Part shown: one piece after another, positions 6,123-45,871 of the stretch
How positions within the stretch are numbered: the stretch's first letter is position 1
Layout of the letters: each line of letters begins with the position of its first letter
Assembly: GCA_030524175.1 (NCBI GenBank)
Contig: JAUNHC010000013.1
Coordinates: 59,456 to 123,455, forward strand
Direction: 5' to 3'
Source: Eubacteriales bacterium
Lineage (GTDB): Bacteria; Bacillota; Clostridia; Lachnospirales; Lachnospiraceae
Length of the DNA: 64,000 nucleotides
Translations under genes and position numbers: made by a program
The notes under the pieces: model-generated
Databases searched by the model: none
What the model saw: only the letters and a program-made list of their open reading frames with translations
Told to the model about the DNA's origin: nothing

Positions 6123-6989
6123 TTACAATTTCTGCCCCCCCCCTGGAACATCATAGGCCAGTCTTTTCTTTGCCGCCTCCAGAAGTTCCAGCGGTGTCTG
6201 CTTTTCGTCCTCAAAAGCTGTACTGCCGAAACGCACATCGATCCGGTAGCCTTTATCAGCCATTTTCCGCTGTTCCTCTTCCAGTTTGTCCCGCAGACGC
6301 TTTTTCACGATTCTCTCACCTTCGGCGTTGGTAAACATTATGGTCCCCCATAAATAAGGAGAGCTTCGCAGAAGAAATACGGAATCCTCTGTTCTCAAAT
6401 TCTTCTGTGCCACTTCAGAAATGACTTTTATCTGTTGGGAAAAGCGCTTTTTGCCCAAAAGCTTTCTCACCTCGTCCTCATATCTCAGTTCCCATACCAG
6501 AAGCATCATGTGCATGTCATAGCGCTTGGAAATCCTCATATAAACAGCACATTCTTCTTCAAAATTGTTGATATTGGGAAGATTGGTTTCCTCATCTACA
6601 ACTGAGAATCTCTCAAGCTGCTCCAGAAGCTCATTGTTTTCTTCCTGGAGTCTTGTATGGCTCCTGCAGAAAAAGTACAGGGCCGTTGTCACCAGCGGAA
6701 TCCAGATGATCCAGAAATACAGCTGGGAATCCACAGTCTCCCCTGAACGGATCACGCCCCATAACACGTAACTCACATAGGCAAAGAGAATCAGCATATC
6801 TGTAATCAGCCCTGCAGTCACAGACACAAAATAGGTGATCAGCATAGACACGCTGGCCGCACAGTACATGAGGACATGTATCTCCCATTTATCCCCGCCG
6901 TTTCCCGTAAAGACAATGCCCACAAGTATGAGCAGCAGGAGAGCAAGAAAAGAAAGGTCGCTTTGCAATGAATAATTATGCTTCTTCAT
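6123..6989 (-). CDS. Membrane protein with degenerate GGDEF domain and intact I-site: putative c-di-GMP receptor
   Basis: The 288-residue protein has four to five N-terminal membrane helices (residues ~12-105), a short coiled linker (LQEENNELLEQLERF), then a GGDEF fold (about 130-288) recognisable from TNLPN, the closing GSTAF and LLEAAKKRLAYD. Where active enzymes have GGDEF it reads RSSPY (208-212), so diguanylate cyclase activity is not expected. The allosteric RxxD motif that binds c-di-GMP is kept as RTED (199-202) with nearly standard spacing. It is last in the polysaccharide operon and overlaps the BcsB-like gene by 14 bp; GGAGGG precedes the ATG. Known parallels are Listeria PssE and Pseudomonas PelD, degenerate GGDEF receptors that switch on polymer synthesis. 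The receptor role here is inferred. Confidence 0.82.
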   Translation of the reverse strand: MKKHNYSLQSDLSFLALLLLILVGIVFTGNGGDKWEIHVLMYCAASVSMLITYFVSVTAGLITDMLILFAYVSYVLWGVIRSGETVDSQLYFWIIWIPLVTTALYFFCRSHTRLQEENNELLEQLERFSVVDEETNLPNINNFEEECAVYMRISKRYDMHMMLLVWELRYEDEVRKLLGKKRFSQQIKVISEVAQKNLRTEDSVFLLRSSPYLWGTIMFTNAEGERIVKKRLRDKLEEEQRKMADKGYRIDVRFGSTAFEDEKQTPLELLEAAKKRLAYDVPGGGQKL

Positions 6990-9129
6990 CCTGTCCGCCC
7001 TCCTTCAATTTTCTCTGCCTTCTCTTCCTTCTTGACGAAGTCCTGAGGTGCTTCACGATCACCATGATAAGCCCCAGAAGAAGAACCCCCATGATCACTG
7101 CACTGGCTGTCACAAACATAAGCACATCTTTTCTGTCAAGAAGATTATCTACTGTGTCGATCACGGTTTTCTTATTTTTTGTAAACTGGTAAGCTGACAT
7201 ATTATCCGTGTCGGAAACATATCCGTCACCGCTGATCTTCCACAGCTCGTCTGTATCAGAAAGATACTTTGCAGCAGAAAGCATCCCGTTTTCTGAGGCT
7301 CCTGTTATGAAGAGCGCGGCTTTATCAGAACTGTACGGAGATGGAAGAAGCTGGGCCGTCCCCATTATGCTTCCCGCCTCCCGGGTGATCTGCATTTTGC
7401 TGTTCGAAAGAAGGATTCCTTCCTGGTCAAATTTAAAATAGAGCTTTTCATTATTTTCTGCCACAAGAGGATTCTCATTCCATGTACCTATAACAATAAG
7501 GTTTCTGTCCTTTAAGTCTCCCGCCTGGGCGCCCTGGGCTACTGCGATACTCCCGGAATTGTTTTTCTGGTATCTGCCCAAGGTGAGACATACGCCTCTT
7601 AACACCTCAAGGTCCGCCGCTGACGGCTTCTCAGGCAAAACAGCAAGAACCTGGTTCATACTTCCGTTTTTCACAAACGGTGCAGGATAATTATCAAATA
7701 ATAAAGGGATGTCATCTGCCAGTACCATCTTCATCATACTTTCTTCACTGACATATGCCCAGGGGTTGTCCTCCTGTCTCAGGGTACACCAAACATCCTC
7801 GATCTCAAGGTCAAAAGCAGCTTTTACTATAAAATCACCATTAATCTCCAGGTCAGCGGGAATATAAAACTCAGCCTCATCCCCGTTTGCCTTCTCTTTT
7901 GACAGCTTATGGCTTCCCACAGGTATATCATTCACATACACTGTCAGAAGGGAACGTTCAAAATCAAGATTCTCAGAGTACCTGACCTTCAAATATACGG
8001 AGCTTGAAGAGGATAAGGTCTTATTAGCCGATGAAGCCACGGAAAAAGAAACACTCTGTCGGAAAGCACCGTTAATATATGCCCCGCTGTCTGTAAGGGG
8101 CAGATACTCTTCCTGCTCTGACAGCTCCATATTCACTGTCTCACCTTCCTCCACAGGATGTGAAGTGCCTGTCATCTGATCCATATAATCTGGATTTCCA
8201 AGCATGACTCCGCCTTTTTTGAGAAGCTCTGTGTCTGAACCTGTAAGGACAAGAAGATCTTTCCCATAAACCTTGGCGTAAGCAAGAACCGCGCCTTCTG
8301 ATGCAGCTTTTCTCCCATCCTCCGAGAGTGCATCATAAATATCTCCCGGAAGCTGGTACAATTCCCCTACATAAATGCCGTAATGATAGTCCTCTTCCTG
8401 TATGGCAGTTCCCCTTTCCAGACAAAAGTTCTGGTAATCTATGGATGCATTCTGTGAAATCCCCGTCATGATCTCTGCCGCTGCTGTCAATTCACTGTCT
8501 GTGGGATTTTCCGGAAGGAACAGTGCGGAATGAACATTTTCCAATGCATCTATGGCTGTTAACTGCTCATACACATTGGCAATACTTCCTGTCTGTACCT
8601 TAGGAATATAAGAGATACTCACAGAAGAATCCTCTGATATATTCAGCCAGTTGGCTTTTGACACGTCGTCCGCACAGGGCATGGACTCATAAGTCCTGAT
8701 ATAGCTTTCCACCTTAAGCTCATTGACCCCTTCTTTAATCTTCTCCTTGGGAATGGTGATTTCTGAGGTCTGCATCTCTCCCTTGGAATCAGTGACCCTC
8801 TGTGAATAGAAGGGTTCCCCGTTAAGGGATACTGTAAAATCTGAAATATGGTCATCTCTCAGCTGGGTTACATTGTACACTATATGGAGTACGCTATCCT
8901 GTATATCCCAGTTTCCTGAGGAAAAATACTCTGTACATTCTGAAAACAGTCCTGTCATGGAGTGAGTTTCGCTGAAAGTCTCTGTATGGACAAATCCTTT
9001 GTCTTCTGCCGCCGTACTTGCCGCCGCTGTTTCAGAAGTACCTGCAGCCGGAAGAGCCATGACTGTATGTCCGCCCATACAAATTCCCAACAGCACAGCT
9101 GCCAGAAGTACAATTCTTTTGTTCTGCAT
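6976..9129 (-). CDS. BcsB-like exported polysaccharide synthase subunit
   Basis: The 717-residue protein has a Sec signal peptide (MQNKRIVLLAAVLLGICMGG, cleavage probably after a VMA), a long extracytoplasmic part of repeated carbohydrate-binding and flavodoxin-like modules as in BcsB, and one C-terminal membrane helix (VLMFVTASAVIMGVLLLGLI) followed by a very basic tail. BcsB-type proteins sit on the outer face of the membrane and guide the growing polymer out of the GT2 synthase. The start at 9129 is set by AAGGAGG; the GT2 gene ends at 9144, just upstream, so the genes are coupled. Here c-di-GMP sensing would come from the next gene, because the synthase has no PilZ domain. Confidence 0.85.
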   Translation of the reverse strand: MQNKRIVLLAAVLLGICMGGHTVMALPAAGTSETAAASTAAEDKGFVHTETFSETHSMTGLFSECTEYFSSGNWDIQDSVLHIVYNVTQLRDDHISDFTVSLNGEPFYSQRVTDSKGEMQTSEITIPKEKIKEGVNELKVESYIRTYESMPCADDVSKANWLNISEDSSVSISYIPKVQTGSIANVYEQLTAIDALENVHSALFLPENPTDSELTAAAEIMTGISQNASIDYQNFCLERGTAIQEEDYHYGIYVGELYQLPGDIYDALSEDGRKAASEGAVLAYAKVYGKDLLVLTGSDTELLKKGGVMLGNPDYMDQMTGTSHPVEEGETVNMELSEQEEYLPLTDSGAYINGAFRQSVSFSVASSANKTLSSSSSVYLKVRYSENLDFERSLLTVYVNDIPVGSHKLSKEKANGDEAEFYIPADLEINGDFIVKAAFDLEIEDVWCTLRQEDNPWAYVSEESMMKMVLADDIPLLFDNYPAPFVKNGSMNQVLAVLPEKPSAADLEVLRGVCLTLGRYQKNNSGSIAVAQGAQAGDLKDRNLIVIGTWNENPLVAENNEKLYFKFDQEGILLSNSKMQITREAGSIMGTAQLLPSPYSSDKAALFITGASENGMLSAAKYLSDTDELWKISGDGYVSDTDNMSAYQFTKNKKTVIDTVDNLLDRKDVLMFVTASAVIMGVLLLGLIMVIVKHLRTSSRRKRRQRKLKEGGQDEEA

Positions 9130-9143
9130 TTCATTCCTCCTTA

Positions 9144-10400
9144 TCATTGGAATCTTTCTGTCTTATACCATTTGGTCTCTTTATGTCCTGCTGCATCCAG
9201 AATATACTTTATCAGGCCATAGGCCGCCACTATCATCCACAGCTTTGTATATGTAAAATACATCAGCAGGATTAATCCTATATTCCTGAAATTCATTTCT
9301 CCCTTTTCCGTGGATATGGTCACAAAGGTTCCCAGCACAAACATAAGAACTGCCAAAGCCCACAGAAGATTGCCAAGTCCCGCCAGATTCAGATGTACAA
9401 CACCCGCCAGATTCAGCACAAACATAGAGTCTGAAATCAGAAGGGACAGCAGCAGAAAGAAATATGTGGAAAAATAGTAAAAAAGGTCAAACCGTATCTG
9501 TCTTGCTTCCTTCCTCCACAAAAGGGGCAGATTTTTCAGTAAAACGTAAATATTTCCCTTTACCCATCTGGTCCGCTGCCGGAACCATACAGACAATGTC
9601 TGAGGTTCCTGCTCCCATGTGACCGCAGCCGGCGCAAACTTGATCCGTTTTTTCATCATATAGATGCGGAAACTGATTTCCGTATCTTCGGCAATGGCTT
9701 TTTCATCCCATCCGCCTATTGCGTCTATGATCGTCCGGCGGATAATAAAATTTGTCCCGGGTATGGTACACAGTTTTAAAAGGTTCCATCTTCCTGCCTG
9801 CGCCATCCATTGAAAGCATAGAGTTTCAATATTGATAAATCTTGTGAGCAATGTGGCATCTCTGTTTCTTGTACGGAATTTTCCGATAACCGCCCCAAGG
9901 GAATCATCATTTTCGATTTCCCACACAAGAGTTTTAAGGGCTGCAGGTTCCGGTGTATTGTCCGCATCGTAAATAACCATATACTCTCCCACTGCGATTT
10001 TATACCCGTTATTCAAGGCCCCTGACTTTCCTCTTCCTCCGGTGACAGCATCTGTGTTGACCACATAAAGCTTCCGGTGGGGAAACTCCTTTTGGATGCC
10101 TTCCAGGATCTCAGCGCTGTTGTCAGAGGAATTGTCGTTGATCACAATAATTTCATAACGGTCTTCAGGATAATCAAAGGCAAGAAGTGCTCTCACCGTA
10201 TCTCCGATCACAATCCCCTCATTATGTGCCGGCACCATCACTGAAATCATAGGATAGCTGTTGAAATGTTTCGGCACTGCAGCATCCTTCTCACATTTCA
10301 CGTAATAAAAATATCCGCTGATGATCAAAATAATATTTAACAGCAGCAGAGACCAGATACAGATGACGGCGCCTAATGTGATATTATCCAATACTGTCAT
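9144..10400 (-). CDS. Processive GT2 exopolysaccharide synthase
   Basis: The 418-residue inner-membrane glycosyltransferase has one N-terminal helix (~10-33), a GT-A catalytic domain and four C-terminal helices. It shows the processive GT2 signature: D89 in INDNSSD, the DAD metal site at 145-147 (YDADNTPEP), the catalytic acid in AEDTE (237-241) and QRTRW (275-279), which binds the growing chain. It resembles BcsA/PgaC/PssC-type synthases but lacks a PilZ domain. The substrate is probably a UDP-HexNAc, since a UDP-GlcNAc 2-epimerase begins the operon. Its ATG overlaps the stop codon of the hydrolase/deacetylase gene, and AAGAAGGAAA serves as ribosome site. Confidence 0.9.
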   Translation of the reverse strand: MTVLDNITLGAVICIWSLLLLNIILIISGYFYYVKCEKDAAVPKHFNSYPMISVMVPAHNEGIVIGDTVRALLAFDYPEDRYEIIVINDNSSDNSAEILEGIQKEFPHRKLYVVNTDAVTGGRGKSGALNNGYKIAVGEYMVIYDADNTPEPAALKTLVWEIENDDSLGAVIGKFRTRNRDATLLTRFINIETLCFQWMAQAGRWNLLKLCTIPGTNFIIRRTIIDAIGGWDEKAIAEDTEISFRIYMMKKRIKFAPAAVTWEQEPQTLSVWFRQRTRWVKGNIYVLLKNLPLLWRKEARQIRFDLFYYFSTYFFLLLSLLISDSMFVLNLAGVVHLNLAGLGNLLWALAVLMFVLGTFVTISTEKGEMNFRNIGLILLMYFTYTKLWMIVAAYGLIKYILDAAGHKETKWYKTERFQ

Positions 10401-12736
10401 TTATTTTCCTTCTTTCTGTCGCTGCGCCGGAATTTTTGTTTGTAGATTCTCCGGCTTCCTGCAAGGATCACCCCGAATGCCCCTATGGCCGCCACAACCA
10501 CAACGATCAGGATTCTTGAGCTCTTGTTAAAAAATCCCTCCATCGCCGCTTCTGTTGTCTCCCTGTACGAATAACTGCTTTCCTCTGTTTTCTTCTGATA
10601 TACAGGTATTTCATCCGTATAGAGGCTGCGGTAGTCAGAAACAGTAAACCACTTTTTTTCTAAAAATGCCAATGTCTCCTCCCATTCCTCCTTGTCTTCA
10701 AAAACAGAAAACTGAATAACCGTGTCTGCGGGAAGTTCCGGGAACTGCTTCTCACCAGCGGTCACATCCTTCAGAAAATCAAGATTTAAAGAAACCGGTT
10801 CCTGCTCATAAGGGAAAATCTGCACACCTGCATTTTCCAGGGGCCACCGGGATCTGGCAAGCTTATTCTCCCTGGTATCCGGCCCATATCCTTCCCCCTG
10901 GTCTATTGGTTCATGGAGAACTACTGACGCCCCCTTAGCCTGAAGATATTTAAGCTTTTCCGTAAACTCGCCGTACGAGGGATAGCTTGTATTTTCGTAT
11001 ACAGGCATCACTCTGAGAATATAAGGAATTCCTCTTTCATAAAGGTCTTCTCCCATTTCTGTCAGCATGTTCATATCAGAGAATGGATACACCTCATCGA
11101 TCATCACGAAAAATCTGCCCTCAGGGCTTTCTGCCCCGAAAAAAGAATGCAGAGCACTGCTCAGGGCAACTGTACTTAGGTCCTCTCCCCGCACATAAGA
11201 AGCATACCCATAACCGTCCTTAACAACAGCATAAGGCGCTTCCTCCCCAAAAGGCAGCTGCATCCTGCCAAAACTTTCCCCGTCTGAAATCTCATCCAGA
11301 TAAAAAAGCCCTTTCTGCTTCTTCTCACTCTGCACCACATTTCCCAGATCCAGCGCTGCAAATGTATCCTTCCTGTAAGACAAACCCTCCTGTATGCCAT
11401 ATGCATTCTCAGTCCCTACAGAAAATACCCGGCAGCCACTGTCCAAGGCAGCCTGTGCGGTCTGCTCTTTTGTGGTGATCACGTAGGTATACTTTCCGGC
11501 CTCCTGCTCAGCCCTTGCCCCGTCACTCTCAAACACGGCAGTCTTACCGCATCCTTTTACAAGCTGCTCCAGGATTTCCCTCTGGTCATCCGAGGAGGAT
11601 ATAAATGTATCTTCCACCCTATCCGTCCCCTTCCCCGGCCCGGAGATCCGAAGGGCCAGGAGTGCTGTGAGATTATCGAAGGAATGAGCTTTAAGAGTGC
11701 CGCTGTCTGCAAATGCGCCGTAAACCTCGCTTTGTTTATCCGTAACCTGCAGCTCCAGCATACGTTCCAGAGCCATGTCATAAAGCTCCTGCTCCCCCGT
11801 ATTTCCCGCAATCATGGCACAAAGAGCATAGATGGCAGTGGATTCCACCTTGTTGAGAGGCTGTCCGTCTATGGAATAAGACCCGTAAATCCCGTCCCCG
11901 GCAACAGCTTCCTTCATCCATTCAATCGTTCTCGCCGGGCATCTTCCAACCTCTGACAGATAATTGACAGTGAGCAGGGATTCCACCATGTTTATATCTT
12001 CACTGGAATACGTCTGCTTCTGAACATGATATCTTGTATGGAAAAAGGGAAATCCATCTCCAAGATAACCTTCGCACATCACTTCCTCGGCTCTGTCACG
12101 TATTTCTTCCCATTTGGGATTCTCACGGGCAGCATATTCCATGGCAGTCAAATCTCCGTAGCACAGGGTCATTTCGTCACCGCTCTGATCTTCTTCCGCA
12201 GAATAATAATCAACCACAAGACCATTCTTTACATTTGTTTTCCTCAGCCATCCTGCATAGACAAGAGCCAGTTCCTCATCTCCGCCCTCATACAGTCCCC
12301 GGATGATCCTCAGATCATCCACAGCAGCGTTTACCGTCCTGGGGGTGCCGTCCTGCTCAATCCTGTAAGACAGATAACCGTCCTGCTCCAGAACACCGGC
12401 AATATACTCCTTTACTTCTCCGTAAAGCTCCTCATCTCCCGACCGGACAGCATACTCTAAAAGCAGACCTTCTGACTCCGCCAGGATTTCATGCCCTCCT
12501 GACAATTCTTCCCCTGCCTCATGGTCCAGATATTCCGTATAGACACCGCCGTCCTTCATCATTTTGCTCCGGATAAAAGAGAGACACGCTTTCTCCTCCT
12601 CACTCCGCTGTGACGAGAAGGTGTTTTCAGATTTTGAGGCATATTCTGTTATGGCAAAGGTCTCTGCCGTCCTGGAACATCCCGCTGTCATAAGCAGCAG
12701 CAGTCCGGCCAGGGCTGCCATTATTCTCTTCCGCAC
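10397..12736 (-). CDS. Lipoprotein with GH8-like and DUF2334 deacetylase-like domains
   Basis: The ~779-residue surface protein has a lipoprotein signal (LLLLMTAGCS, Cys about residue 20) and also a C-terminal membrane helix with a basic tail. Residues ~45-365 form an alpha/alpha repeat region resembling GH8: SEG (E89) as candidate acid, VDD (140-141), and FDNL (D354). Residues ~530-720 resemble DUF2334 polysaccharide deacetylases: MIDEVYPFSD (about 545-554), GIPYILRVMPVY, and VVLHEP (about 605-610). It would trim and de-N-acetylate the polymer made by the neighbouring GT2/BcsB pair. I chose a GTG start at 12736, 9 bp after GGGAGG and just past the upstream stop codon; an ATG at 12793 is possible but would overlap that gene. 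The GH8 call is weaker than the DUF2334 call. Confidence 0.72.
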   Translation of the reverse strand: MRKRIMAALAGLLLLMTAGCSRTAETFAITEYASKSENTFSSQRSEEEKACLSFIRSKMMKDGGVYTEYLDHEAGEELSGGHEILAESEGLLLEYAVRSGDEELYGEVKEYIAGVLEQDGYLSYRIEQDGTPRTVNAAVDDLRIIRGLYEGGDEELALVYAGWLRKTNVKNGLVVDYYSAEEDQSGDEMTLCYGDLTAMEYAARENPKWEEIRDRAEEVMCEGYLGDGFPFFHTRYHVQKQTYSSEDINMVESLLTVNYLSEVGRCPARTIEWMKEAVAGDGIYGSYSIDGQPLNKVESTAIYALCAMIAGNTGEQELYDMALERMLELQVTDKQSEVYGAFADSGTLKAHSFDNLTALLALRISGPGKGTDRVEDTFISSSDDQREILEQLVKGCGKTAVFESDGARAEQEAGKYTYVITTKEQTAQAALDSGCRVFSVGTENAYGIQEGLSYRKDTFAALDLGNVVQSEKKQKGLFYLDEISDGESFGRMQLPFGEEAPYAVVKDGYGYASYVRGEDLSTVALSSALHSFFGAESPEGRFFVMIDEVYPFSDMNMLTEMGEDLYERGIPYILRVMPVYENTSYPSYGEFTEKLKYLQAKGASVVLHEPIDQGEGYGPDTRENKLARSRWPLENAGVQIFPYEQEPVSLNLDFLKDVTAGEKQFPELPADTVIQFSVFEDKEEWEETLAFLEKKWFTVSDYRSLYTDEIPVYQKKTEESSYSYRETTEAAMEGFFNKSSRILIVVVVAAIGAFGVILAGSRRIYKQKFRRSDRKKENK

Positions 12737-12741
12737 AAATC

Positions 12742-14116
12742 TCAGCCTCCCTTCCCGTGAAGCCATGCTGTCCTGACTCTGCCCCATACCCAAGAAAGCA
12801 GCCGGGCGGATATCAGAAGCATTCCCATGTCAAACACTACATTATAATAAAAGAGAGTTCTTCCTGCCTCCACGGCACCGGTGTCTATTACCGTCAGTGC
12901 CATCAGTAAAACACCCATAAATATTAACAAGCCGAATAACCCTGTACTGAAACGCTCTTTCCTGCCTGCTGTACAAAATATCACCATAAAAATAAGCAAA
13001 AAGCCTAATGTCTTGGGAATATAAGAGGCCTTTACCCTGCTGTAAACCCGGAAAACTTCTGCCGCCTTTCCCTGGGGCTGCCCTTCCTTTCCTTTATCAG
13101 CAGCCGCGGTTCCGCTGTCAATGACATATCCCTGAGATGCCGCAGATTCCATCATATACATAAAACTTCCCGGATGAGTAAGATAATACAATATAATACT
13201 GCCTGTATCATAATGGCTATAAAAATCTCTATACAAAAGTTCATCGTCAGCCTTAATTACCGGATACCGCTCATATGCACTTGTCCCGTCCAATATGCTG
13301 AAGGAACTGTCAATCCCAAAGCCTCTTCCGGATTGTCCGAACTGCTCATAATACCTCTGGTCATAGAATGATATTTGTCAATAATATTGTTTTCAACTCC
13401 GTATATCTGTGACAACACAGCACCTGTAAAAAAAGCCGCTGCCCCAACACTTGCCAGAATCCGGAAAGCCTCCCGCCGCCAACAGGGTGCAACAGTTTCC
13501 CATCTTTTTTTCTTACAAAACAAACTGTCAGGTATAAAAAGGCCGCCCCTGCTGTACACCACAGAAATCCCTTATCCGGCATTGCCCATACCATCATCAT
13601 ACCGCCTCCCGCAGCAAGGAACAAAAGGAAGAACCTGTTTGAACTCTTTTGGGAAAGCAGCAAGATACAAGCTATCATAAGAATCAGGGATGGATATACC
13701 ACGCCTTCAGGACTGAAAGAACGAAACCAGTTGAGATATGCCCCATCACAAAAAATGAACACACCTAACAGAGCAGCCAGATATTTCCCTCTCTGAAGCT
13801 GCCCTGCCGCAAATTTAACAAATAAATATAAAGCCAAAAGAAAATACAGACTCAGAAGCAGTTCATAATACCGCATGTCTAAAACCGTTTTGTCTTTTGA
13901 TAACCACTGATTCAGAATCTGAGCCCCCCAGACAAAAATCTTCACAGAGAAAGGCAATGCGCTGTCCTCATAAGCTCCGGCATCCATATACGCAGGGGCA
14001 GACGGATAAAACAAAACAGCTCCCGCTGCAAGCATACCTGTTATCACAGCAAACAAAGACGGTGTAAGACGCAGCTTTCTCTTCCCGACAGCCATTTTCC
14101 CGGCCATACCTGTCAC
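12742..14116 (-). pseudogene. Polytopic membrane protein of the EPS operon, broken by two 1-base frameshifts
   Basis: Three overlapping frames together encode one hydrophobic protein. Frame 1 (from ATG 14116) runs through about seven helices to ...RKKDGKLLHPVGG. Frame 2 carries EAFRILASVGAAAFFTGAV and ...HSMTRGIMSSSDNPEEAL. Frame 3 carries GIDSSFSILDGTSAYERYPV and two or three more helices, ending at 12742. Adding one G to the GGG run at 13472-13474 and one at 13315-13317 (read on the minus strand) joins all three into a 458-residue protein with no stop. The start overlaps the wecB stop. Both lesions are single missing bases in G3 runs, so base-calling error is as likely as decay. Function unknown; it resembles large membrane proteins found with polymer synthases. 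Confidence 0.75.
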
Positions 14117-15273
14117 GTCCTTTTCTGGTTGTAAGCTAAGGTTTTGCTGTCTGACCCACTCTTGTTACATACCCTATCTTCCATATTCACGCACAAAATA
14201 TCAGCGATCCTATGACTTGCATATCCGTCTCCGTAAGGATTCACTGCATGAGCCATCTTCTCATAGACAGCTTCATCGGATAACAGAGCAGAAGCAGCAC
14301 AATAGATTTCCTCTTCACTGGTGCCTGTGAGCTTTAAAGTTCCTGCCTCCACACCTTCCGGACGTTCCGTTGTGTCCCTCATCACAAGAACAGGCTTTCC
14401 CAGCGCAGGCGCCTCCTCCTGGATACCGCCGCTGTCTGTGAGTACCAGTGCGGAATGAGCCATAATATTCTGGAAATCGTAAGGATTTAAAGGCTCCAAA
14501 AGCTTCACCTGGGGATTTCCCCCTAATATTTCCCGAGCCAGCTTTCTTATTTTCGGATTCATGTGCATGGGATATATGACACATATGTCAGAAAAGCGTT
14601 CCGTCAGACGCCGTACTGCCTTAAATATATGGATGAAAGGCTCCCCGCTGTTTTCTCTTCGGTGGGCAGTGAGAAGTACAAGCTTTTTCCCTGCAGCCCA
14701 TTCCAGGACAGGATGAGAATAGTTATCATCTAATATCAGCCGCAGAGCGTCCAGCCCTGTGTTTCCCGTCACATAAATACTCTCAGCCTTCTTGCCTTCC
14801 GCCAAAAGATTCTGTCTGGCTGCTTCCGTGGGTGCAAAATGCCAGTTGGCAACCAGCCCTACAGCCTGACGGTTAAACTCTTCCGGAAATGGTGCGTCCA
14901 GATCGTAGGTTCTAAGCCCTGCTTCCACATGTCCCACCGGTATATGCAGATAGAAACAGGCCAAAGCGGCACAGAACGCCGTACTGGTATCTCCGTGGAC
15001 CAGCACCAGATCAGGCTTTTCTTCCTTTAATACAGATTGTATCCGTTCCAGTATTCTCGTTGTAATATCGAACAGGGTCTGATCCGGCAGCATAATATCT
15101 AAATTATGATCTGAAACCACATGGAATTTTGCCAATACATCCTCTAGCATTTCCTGATGCTGGCCTGTCACGCAGACCACCATGTCTACGCCCTGTCTTG
15201 TCTTTAATTCCAGTACAAGGGGACACATTTTAATAGCCTCCGGCCTTGTGCCGAAAACTGCCATGATTTTCAT
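14113..15273 (-). CDS. wecB: UDP-N-acetylglucosamine 2-epimerase (non-hydrolysing)
   Basis: The 386-residue cytosolic enzyme interconverts UDP-GlcNAc and UDP-ManNAc. Clear family text includes MKIMAVFGTRPEAIKM at the start, VTGQHQEML, LVHGDTSTAFCAALA, GHVEAGLRTYD, PFPEEFNRQ, TAHRRENSGEP and TDSGGIQEEAP, the last binding the UDP moiety. The start at 15273 follows an AGAGAAG stretch; a longer frame upstream is charged junk. It heads the exopolysaccharide operon and overlaps the next gene by 4 bp, so the polymer is likely to contain ManNAc. The same product also feeds teichoic-acid linkage units, so the assignment to this polymer is inference from position. Confidence 0.9.
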   Translation of the reverse strand: MKIMAVFGTRPEAIKMCPLVLELKTRQGVDMVVCVTGQHQEMLEDVLAKFHVVSDHNLDIMLPDQTLFDITTRILERIQSVLKEEKPDLVLVHGDTSTAFCAALACFYLHIPVGHVEAGLRTYDLDAPFPEEFNRQAVGLVANWHFAPTEAARQNLLAEGKKAESIYVTGNTGLDALRLILDDNYSHPVLEWAAGKKLVLLTAHRRENSGEPFIHIFKAVRRLTERFSDICVIYPMHMNPKIRKLAREILGGNPQVKLLEPLNPYDFQNIMAHSALVLTDSGGIQEEAPALGKPVLVMRDTTERPEGVEAGTLKLTGTSEEEIYCAASALLSDEAVYEKMAHAVNPYGDGYASHRIADILCVNMEDRVCNKSGSDSKTLAYNQKRT

Positions 15274-44878: not shown

Positions 44879-45871
44879 ATGAAGAAGAGAGTTTTATCAG
44901 TAGCATTAACAGCAGCAATGGTTGCATCTATGGCAGCAGTTCCTGCAATCACCGTTCAGGCAGCAGATGACGATTTGATCGTAGTTGGCTATGCACAGGT
45001 AGGTGCAGAATCTGACTGGAGAACAGCAAACACAGAATCCTTTAAATCCACTTTTACCGAAGAAAACGGCTATAAATTAATTTTTGACGATGCACAGCAG
45101 AAACAGGAAAACCAGATTAAGGCAATCCGTTCCTTCATCCAGCAGGATGTTGATTACATCGTAGTTGCACCGGTTGTTGAGACAGGCTGGTAAACTGTAT
45201 TGGAAGAAGCAAAAGAGGCCGGAATCCCGGTTATCCTTTCTGACAGACAGATGAAAGTTTCTGACGATTCCCTGTATGAGTGCTGGGTAGGCGGCAACTT
45301 CATCAAAGAAGGCGAAACAGCAGGCCAGTGGGTAGCTGATTACCTTGAAGAAAAAGGCCGTGGAGAAGAAGAGATCAATCTTGTAACGATCCAGGGAACC
45401 ATCGGAGCATCTGCTCAGGTTGGACGTACAGAAGGCTTTGGAAATATTGTAGAACAGCATGATAACTGGAAAATGTTAGATATGCAGTCCGGTGAGTTTA
45501 CACAGGCTAAAGGCCAGGAAGTTATGGAATCCTTCCTGAAATCCTATGATGACATTGACGTAGTAGTATGCGAGAACGACAATGAAGCATTCGGTGCTAT
45601 CGACGCTATCAAAGCTGCCGGCAAGACCTGCGGACCAGAAGGCGACATCATCGTTATCTCCTTCGACTCTGTAAAAGCTGCTTTCGAAGCTATGATCGCT
45701 GGTGACTTAAACGCTACTTTCGAGTGTAACCCGCTTCACGGACCACGTGTAGACGAAATCATCAAGAAACTGGAAGCCGGCGAAGAAGTAGAAAAGATTC
45801 AGTATGTAGATGAAGCTTACTTCGATACCTCCATGGATCTGGAATCCATTATGGCAGAACGTGCTTACTAA
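44879..45871 (+). pseudogene. ytfQ: Galactofuranose-type sugar-binding protein with in-frame TAA
   Basis: One frame of 330 codons encodes a periplasmic-binding protein of the YtfQ class. The signal peptide is MKKRVLSVALTAAMVASMAA (cleavage near VQA, no lipobox Cys), then VGYAQVGAESDWRTANTESF, FDDAQQKQENQIKAIRSFI and VAPVVETGW. The next codon is TAA (45191-45193), and the same frame continues TVLEEAKEAGIPVILSDRQM to the normal end at 45871. Relatives have Asp or Glu at the stop position, so one base change (GAA to TAA) could explain it. Everything else, including AAGGAGG and the C-terminus, looks intact. It may be a recent nonsense mutation or a sequence error. The 104-residue fragment alone would not bind sugar. 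Confidence 0.82.

Follow-up and report, generated by a model that had tools for sequence, protein, structure and literature searches.

The window, that is, the whole 64,000-nucleotide stretch of DNA analysed here, carries on its minus strand, from position 15273 down to 6123, six closely packed gene units in the order wecB, membrane protein, two-domain lipoprotein, GT2 synthase, BcsB-family protein, and degenerate GGDEF protein. This order and the tight spacing had been proposed in an initial annotation, and both are borne out by profile matches and by overlaps of 4 to 52 bases between the longest open reading frames (ORFs) of adjoining genes. A similar gene set recurs in about 100 retrieved loci and is therefore not a chance assemblage. 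The polytopic membrane protein is present as a gene, but in three frames rather than as one intact ORF, and its two larger pieces were taken into the Pfam/NCBIfam scan. The features are as follows:

14113..15273, minus strand: wecB, UDP-N-acetylglucosamine 2-epimerase (TIGR00236, 485 bits, cut-off 210; sole match in the genome)
12742..14116, minus strand: pssA-like (WsfD family) GT-C membrane transferase, three frames in the assembly (WsfD profile; fold model of an intact relative)
10397..12793 (12793 being the longest-ORF start), minus strand: GH126-PssB fusion lipoprotein (ORFs, profile and structure-sequence matches)
11651..12601, minus strand: GH126 domain of the fusion, residues 65-381 (match to 3ren; E106 and D159/D160 kept)
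10613..11128, minus strand: DUF2334/CE4-fold domain of the fusion, about residues 556-727 (model, fold matches, column counts)
9144..10400, minus strand: pssC, GT2 polysaccharide synthase without PilZ (Pfam/NCBIfam, Listeria identity, motif columns)
6976..9147, minus strand: pssD, BcsB-like membrane-anchored partner (PF03170)
6123..6989, minus strand: pssE, predicted degenerate GGDEF c-di-GMP receptor, YdaK counterpart (GGDEF profile; motif)
6384..6395, minus strand: RxxD I-site RTED, residues 199-202 of PssE (motif alignment)

The synthase (112 bits against Glyco_tranf_2_3) belongs to the PssC/YdaM clade of GT2 enzymes and, as the initial annotation had noted, lacks a PilZ domain in the Pfam scan. 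It is 65% identical to PssC of Listeria valentina (64% to 65% to 3 Listeria records) and near-invariant in its motif columns, whereas PssB, PssD, and PssE share just 23% to 30% identity with the Listeria valentina proteins. The gene that follows overlaps it by 4 bases and encodes a BcsB-family protein (PF03170, 136 bits, cut-off 21), for which a sequence search of the PDB returned no match at E 0.01. We take ydaM and ydaN to be the Bacillus names of the pssC and pssD counterparts. In the sections of Chen et al. 2014 cited here, Listeria PssC is a GT2 enzyme and pssD is already the BcsB orthologue (PMC4125290). The BcsB partner, earlier held up as a distinguishing mark, is thus a native Pss subunit, and the proposed hybrid of Pss, Pel, and Bcs parts is rejected; no Pel family, those of the PelD/PelF/PelG set included, was matched among the operon proteins scanned.

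Assignment to a cellulose or poly-N-acetylglucosamine (PNAG) operon, to which the BcsB family match and the rank of PgaC/IcaA as the top NCBIfam match of the GT2 might point, is very improbable: PgaC/IcaA reaches 186 bits where its cut-off is 422, the top-scoring BcsB equivalog 56 bits where 750 are required, and no match to PilZ, BcsZ, PgaB, IcaB, or IcaC was found in the scanned proteins (for the GT2, among the 25 families listed of 30). A BcsA with PilZ, BcsA/BcsB above their equivalog cut-offs, and a PNAG partner (PgaB or IcaB/C) are accordingly all missing from the scan results, and the GT2 tree and the gene content likewise contradict this assignment. The operon does group cleanly with a described system, an outcome that the initial annotation had set against its own proposal, but that system is Pss, not cellulose or PNAG. 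On sequence grounds we assign the operon to the Pss/Yda class (Listeria pssA-E/Bacillus ydaJKLMN), Listeria branch, as a variant of a known machine; we place it in the wider class rather than in the complete Listeria type because its PssA lies in three frames.

Relatives were collected by scanning genome contigs with the window's GT2, from which the best 80 of 139 were kept; genomes sampled at the level of genus, family, order, and class supplied further loci. With profiles made from the window plus its matches, 102 loci with GT2 and BcsB were identified, a selection that makes them no independent test of that pairing (L112, L113, L125, L146, and L147 were left out). These comprise 77 loci with the Listeria order (GGDEF last, window included), all with PssA and PssB matches, 21 with the Bacillus order, where GGDEF precedes pssB, and 4 in which no GGDEF gene was found. 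In a 56-row GT2 tree, thinned to 17 of the 65 lactobacilli and built without L116 because of its short length, a single change parts the two orders, and the window falls within the Listeria-order group with an SH-aLRT support of 98; two rows labelled as Listeria-order, L040 and L077, have no GGDEF gene in the retrieved sequence. The nearest GT2 row is L112, from the same family (88% identity over 260 columns), the readable part of which arranges GT2, BcsB, and GGDEF as the window does, the remainder being masked. Nine other loci of this family (L105, L106, L108-L110, L129, and L143-L145) have the Bacillus order. Gene order is thus conserved, as the initial annotation had asked to be checked, but it does not simply follow taxonomy, and the nine family loci together with the sister position of L112 indicate that the window copy's lineage differs from that of most of its family. 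To judge from the sequences, transfer or ancient duplication followed by loss may account for this.

A tblastn search of plasmid records gave no sign of operon transfer in the 11 records returned (7 from Acinetobacter, 3 from Listeria, and 1 from Enterococcus), several of which are chromosome-sized. The GT2 matches in the Acinetobacter records (45% to 49% identity, with some 60% of the query covered) likely represent another synthase. The system is rare: with the source genome counted each time, BcsB-family matches, not all of them Pss loci, occur in 1 of 80 relatives, 10 of 392 genomes of the order, 14 of 391 of the class, and 25 of 398 of the phylum; within the genus, 2 of 64 genomes carry a GT2 orthologue at E 1e-60. 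Three loci with a BcsB-family match beside a long GT2 ORF of weak PssC score (112 to 115 bits; L193, L194, and L198) were excluded from the Pss count and are probably cellulose-type operons.

The last gene encodes a membrane protein with a GGDEF match of 26.9 bits (cut-off 23.8), which stays under the cut-off of TIGR00254. No GG[DE]EF motif is present; the sequence RTED, an RxxD I-site, lies five residues ahead of the degenerate motif RSSPY, just as the RxxD of Listeria PssE lies five residues before DKDDA. According to the sections cited of Chen et al. 2014, the Listeria protein is a degenerate GGDEF receptor that binds c-di-GMP with a Kd of 0.79 uM (PMC4125290). Polymer formation in Listeria is known to require PssE. 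Of 101 PssE rows, 85 retain RxxD and none (0/101) has the canonical motif; the 16 rows without RxxD include five from Enterococcus, several from lactobacilli, and one that is truncated. The earlier view of the locus as a c-di-GMP-linked exopolysaccharide operon is supported, with the switch itself a prediction for the source organism. The genome holds 41 GGDEF matches including pssE, one of them under the family cut-off, and may possibly encode many c-di-GMP makers. No c-di-GMP riboswitch was matched in Rfam at gathering score across the window; a promoter and terminator scan gave 24 and 13 against 15.2 and 8.4 expected, respectively, and carries no weight in the interpretation.

The single wecB match of the genome lies in the operon, which agrees with the in-operon source of UDP-ManNAc proposed earlier. 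The polymer of Listeria Pss is composed of ManNAc and Gal, according to the cited part of PMC5422440, and a ManNAc polymer is a reasonable but indirect reading of wecB here. Of the 98 loci whose order was assigned, 23 have wecB inside the retrieved stretch, namely 14 of 77 with the Listeria order (6 on the same strand, 8 on the opposite one) and 9 of 21 with the Bacillus order, all on the same strand. Given the 8 opposite-strand copies among those 14, we regard wecB as a frequent neighbour of the operon, not as a constant member of it.

The third gene encodes two domains in one lipoprotein, as previously described, with an N-terminal lipobox and a C-terminal hydrophobic helix (both identified by eye). 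The first domain had been called GH8-like, but GH126 fits better: the search turned up no more than two solved relatives, 3ren, matched by residues 65-381 (E 6e-45), and 6r2m, matched by residues 102-342 (E 3e-11). Both CPF_2247 (3REN) and PssZ are GH126 proteins according to the cited part of a survey of this family (PMC7479077). E106 is invariant (83/83 rows), as are D159 and D160 (84/84 rows); read off the alignment, E106 would correspond to Glu84 of the literature, the general-acid Glu (PMC7479077). The relation to CPF_2247 and PssZ and this conserved residue together place the domain in GH126. Extra domains are present in <1% of GH126 members, and DUF2334 is not mentioned in the survey's text (PMC7479077).

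Among 83 loci with both domains, GH126 and PssB share one frame in the window only; no such frame was found in 4 other matching genomes among 396 of the family, and the fusion is seen in one assembly. Two loci, L027 and L033, have a separate GH126 gene directly before pssB, with a 4-base overlap and 3 intervening bases, respectively, and their pssB keeps its own signal-like start, a segment missing from the fusion. In a tree of 66 rows, L033 splits off first within the Listeria-order group and L027 sits beside the window; in the 56-row tree, L027 has no settled place. Judged from sequence comparison, the GH126-PssB fusion appears to be new, as does, at the family level, the one-event pattern linking PssA to the deacetylase site that is described below.

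The second domain, corresponding to PssB, gives a DUF2334 match of 39.8 bits (cut-off 26) over positions 2-72 of 203 only, and its model (pLDDT 85.6) has a CE4 fold, with matches to CE4 enzymes, NDST1, and Agd3. The CE4/CE18 metal triad consists of D plus H-x3-H, according to the cited part of PMC12022489. At the triad positions the window has D566, E567, H627, and D631, so that the second histidine is replaced by aspartate and the acidic pair reads D-E, against E-D in complete rows. The hydrolase half of the fusion thus stands, as GH126, but the deacetylase half has an incomplete triad, and the partly deacetylated polymer of the initial annotation is not supported; deacetylation by this domain is unlikely on sequence grounds because the metal site is incomplete. 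That PssB is nonetheless an active de-N-acetylase, making the polymer partly cationic, agrees with the fold matches and with the retention of D566, E567, and H627, but is distinctly improbable in view of D631, the inverted acidic pair, a DUF2334 match that spans near full length in three PssA-less loci (1-203, 2-202, and 1-202), and the lack of a complete triad in any of the 101 PssA-bearing rows, window included.

By contrast with those rows, the triad is complete in 13 of 18 PssA-less loci, a pattern that rests on one evolutionary transition and counts as 1 independent pair. A tentative reading, to which we give rather low odds, is a swap of tailoring that took place once in the class: PssA-less loci would have an active PssB and a cationic polymer, and the gain of PssA would have turned PssB into a pseudo-deacetylase and the product into a glycosylated polymer, PssB perhaps holding the chain for PssA. 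The window would then represent a third state, with PssA lost again, PssB dead, GH126 joined to it, and trimming alone shaping the polymer. Should the pattern hold, the genome alone would tell glycosylated from deacetylated Gram-positive Pss-type polymers, a difference that decides polymer charge and stickiness. Neither PssA nor PssB is assigned a reaction in the cited parts of the Pss literature, and a literature search found no paper combining DUF2334, deacetylase, and exopolysaccharide.

The membrane protein gene occupies three successive frames (13361-14116, 13257-13562, and 12742-13293), the pieces of which match positions 67-216, 217-269, and 271-450 of the NCBIfam WsfD model, the only match to it in the genome, and, aligned to a profile made from 90 relatives of intact length, follow one another without gaps (17-242 as two segments, 240-294, and 296-485). 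A PssA is thus present upstream of PssB, but not intact. Modelling of an intact Listeria valentina relative suggests a GT-C-fold transferase; the WsfD model found no match in 14 control genomes, B. subtilis included. Seven relatives also have a broken pssA, and since their breaks sit elsewhere in the protein (for L057, judged from its tail piece), a conserved programmed frameshift was rejected. In L144 (9771-12929, a 1053 aa ORF) and L145 (17779-19500), an additional WsfD-like membrane protein is encoded close to the clostridial-order operon and may be a second decorating transferase.

Two explanations of the frame changes were weighed. Assembly or sequencing errors in a complete operon are quite conceivable, if short of an even chance: the genome is a draft assembly in 119 contigs with a completeness of 90.7%, and one change lies close to a homopolymer run, but both changes fall in pssA alone, and 24 runs of at least 7 equal bases in 50 other window genes are all read through. 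Since those genes were picked as unbroken, the contrast with pssA (two frame changes in 2.4% of the coding bases compared) is weak and favours real loss only weakly. The further possibility that the operon is a decaying remnant with a true pssA pseudogene, its polymer no longer made, draws on the same contrast, on the broken operon genes of several lactobacilli and an Enterococcus and the broken pssA of seven relatives, and on the rarity of the set in the genus. It is somewhat doubtful, given that the 5 remaining operon genes are intact with conserved motifs and that the Bacillus operon works (cited parts of PMC5422440 and PMC13274460) with no WsfD match in B. subtilis, so that loss of PssA need not halt synthesis. 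The loci with stops or frame changes in operon genes (L029, L045, L060, L070, L092, and L104, from Enterococcus and several lactobacilli) suggest repeated decay of the system or poor assemblies. Elsewhere in the window, a sugar-binding-protein-like gene (44879-45871, plus strand), directly preceding ABC transporter-like genes (names assigned by eye), is disrupted by an in-frame TAA at 45191-45193 and forms a second disrupted gene.

The best overall explanation, to which we assign a probability of about 0.85, is a Pss/Yda-class operon for a WecB-fed, c-di-GMP-switched, and GH126-trimmed polymer, with a pseudo-deacetylase PssB and a disrupted PssA. WecB would supply UDP-ManNAc, PssC would polymerise ManNAc at the membrane and extrude the chain, and PssD would take it up on the outside, while binding of c-di-GMP to the intact RxxD I-site of PssE would turn the synthase on. 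At the outer surface, the GH126 domain may trim the polymer, and the CE4-like domain of PssB, its deacetylase activity probably lost, may have a structural or binding role. The predicted task of PssA is the attachment of side sugars taken from a lipid-linked donor; disruption of PssA predicts an undecorated polymer or a decaying operon, and if the loss is real, the operon may be silent.

The locus places a c-di-GMP-controlled surface-polymer machine, known from Listeria and Bacillus, in rare members of a group that the initial annotation took to be gut Lachnospiraceae, and the analysis separates two arrangements of the Pss-type operon. A literature search found no paper joining at least 4 of the terms Blautia, Lachnospiraceae, exopolysaccharide, c-di-GMP, and BcsB. 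Listeria, PssE, and YdaK go unmentioned in a review of c-di-GMP-regulated exopolysaccharides (PMC8461298), as do Listeria and ydaJ in the main text of an EPS-operon survey (PMC7112194).

Among more distant systems, the gts operon of Lactobacillus acidophilus is of a different kind, in which a GT2 and its small partner occur with a degenerate EAL receptor (cited part of PMC6123363). Pseudomonas PelA (GH166 plus a CE4/CE18-like deacetylase, in the material consulted) and PgaB resemble the fusion by analogy, each being an exported protein of a polymer system that joins a glycosidase to a deacetylase-like domain, but they belong to other GH families, the window's triad is incomplete, and no Pel or Pga match occurs among the operon proteins scanned. 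Bacillus subtilis ydaJKLMN shares with the window, in the descriptions drawn on here, a glycosyl hydrolase, the degenerate GGDEF receptor YdaK, a glycosyltransferase, and EPS genes, and B. subtilis is also matched by the BcsB and DUF2334 models; its GGDEF gene is second, however, and PssA is not matched. The clostridial arrangement PssA-GGDEF-PssB-PssC-PssD ... GH126 and wecB (L105, L106, L108-L110, L129, L143, and L144, all of the window's family) has all seven protein types in common with the window but differs in the position of GGDEF before pssB, in a separate GH126 gene after pssD, and in its separate branch of the GT2 tree. Closest is Listeria pssA-E, with the same A-B-C-D-E order (L043, Listeria valentina), a 65% identical GT2, a BcsB-like PssD, and the same I-site spacing in PssE; Listeria pssZ presumably lies away from pssA-E. 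The window differs from it in that wecB heads the operon, GH126 is fused to PssB, and pssA is broken.
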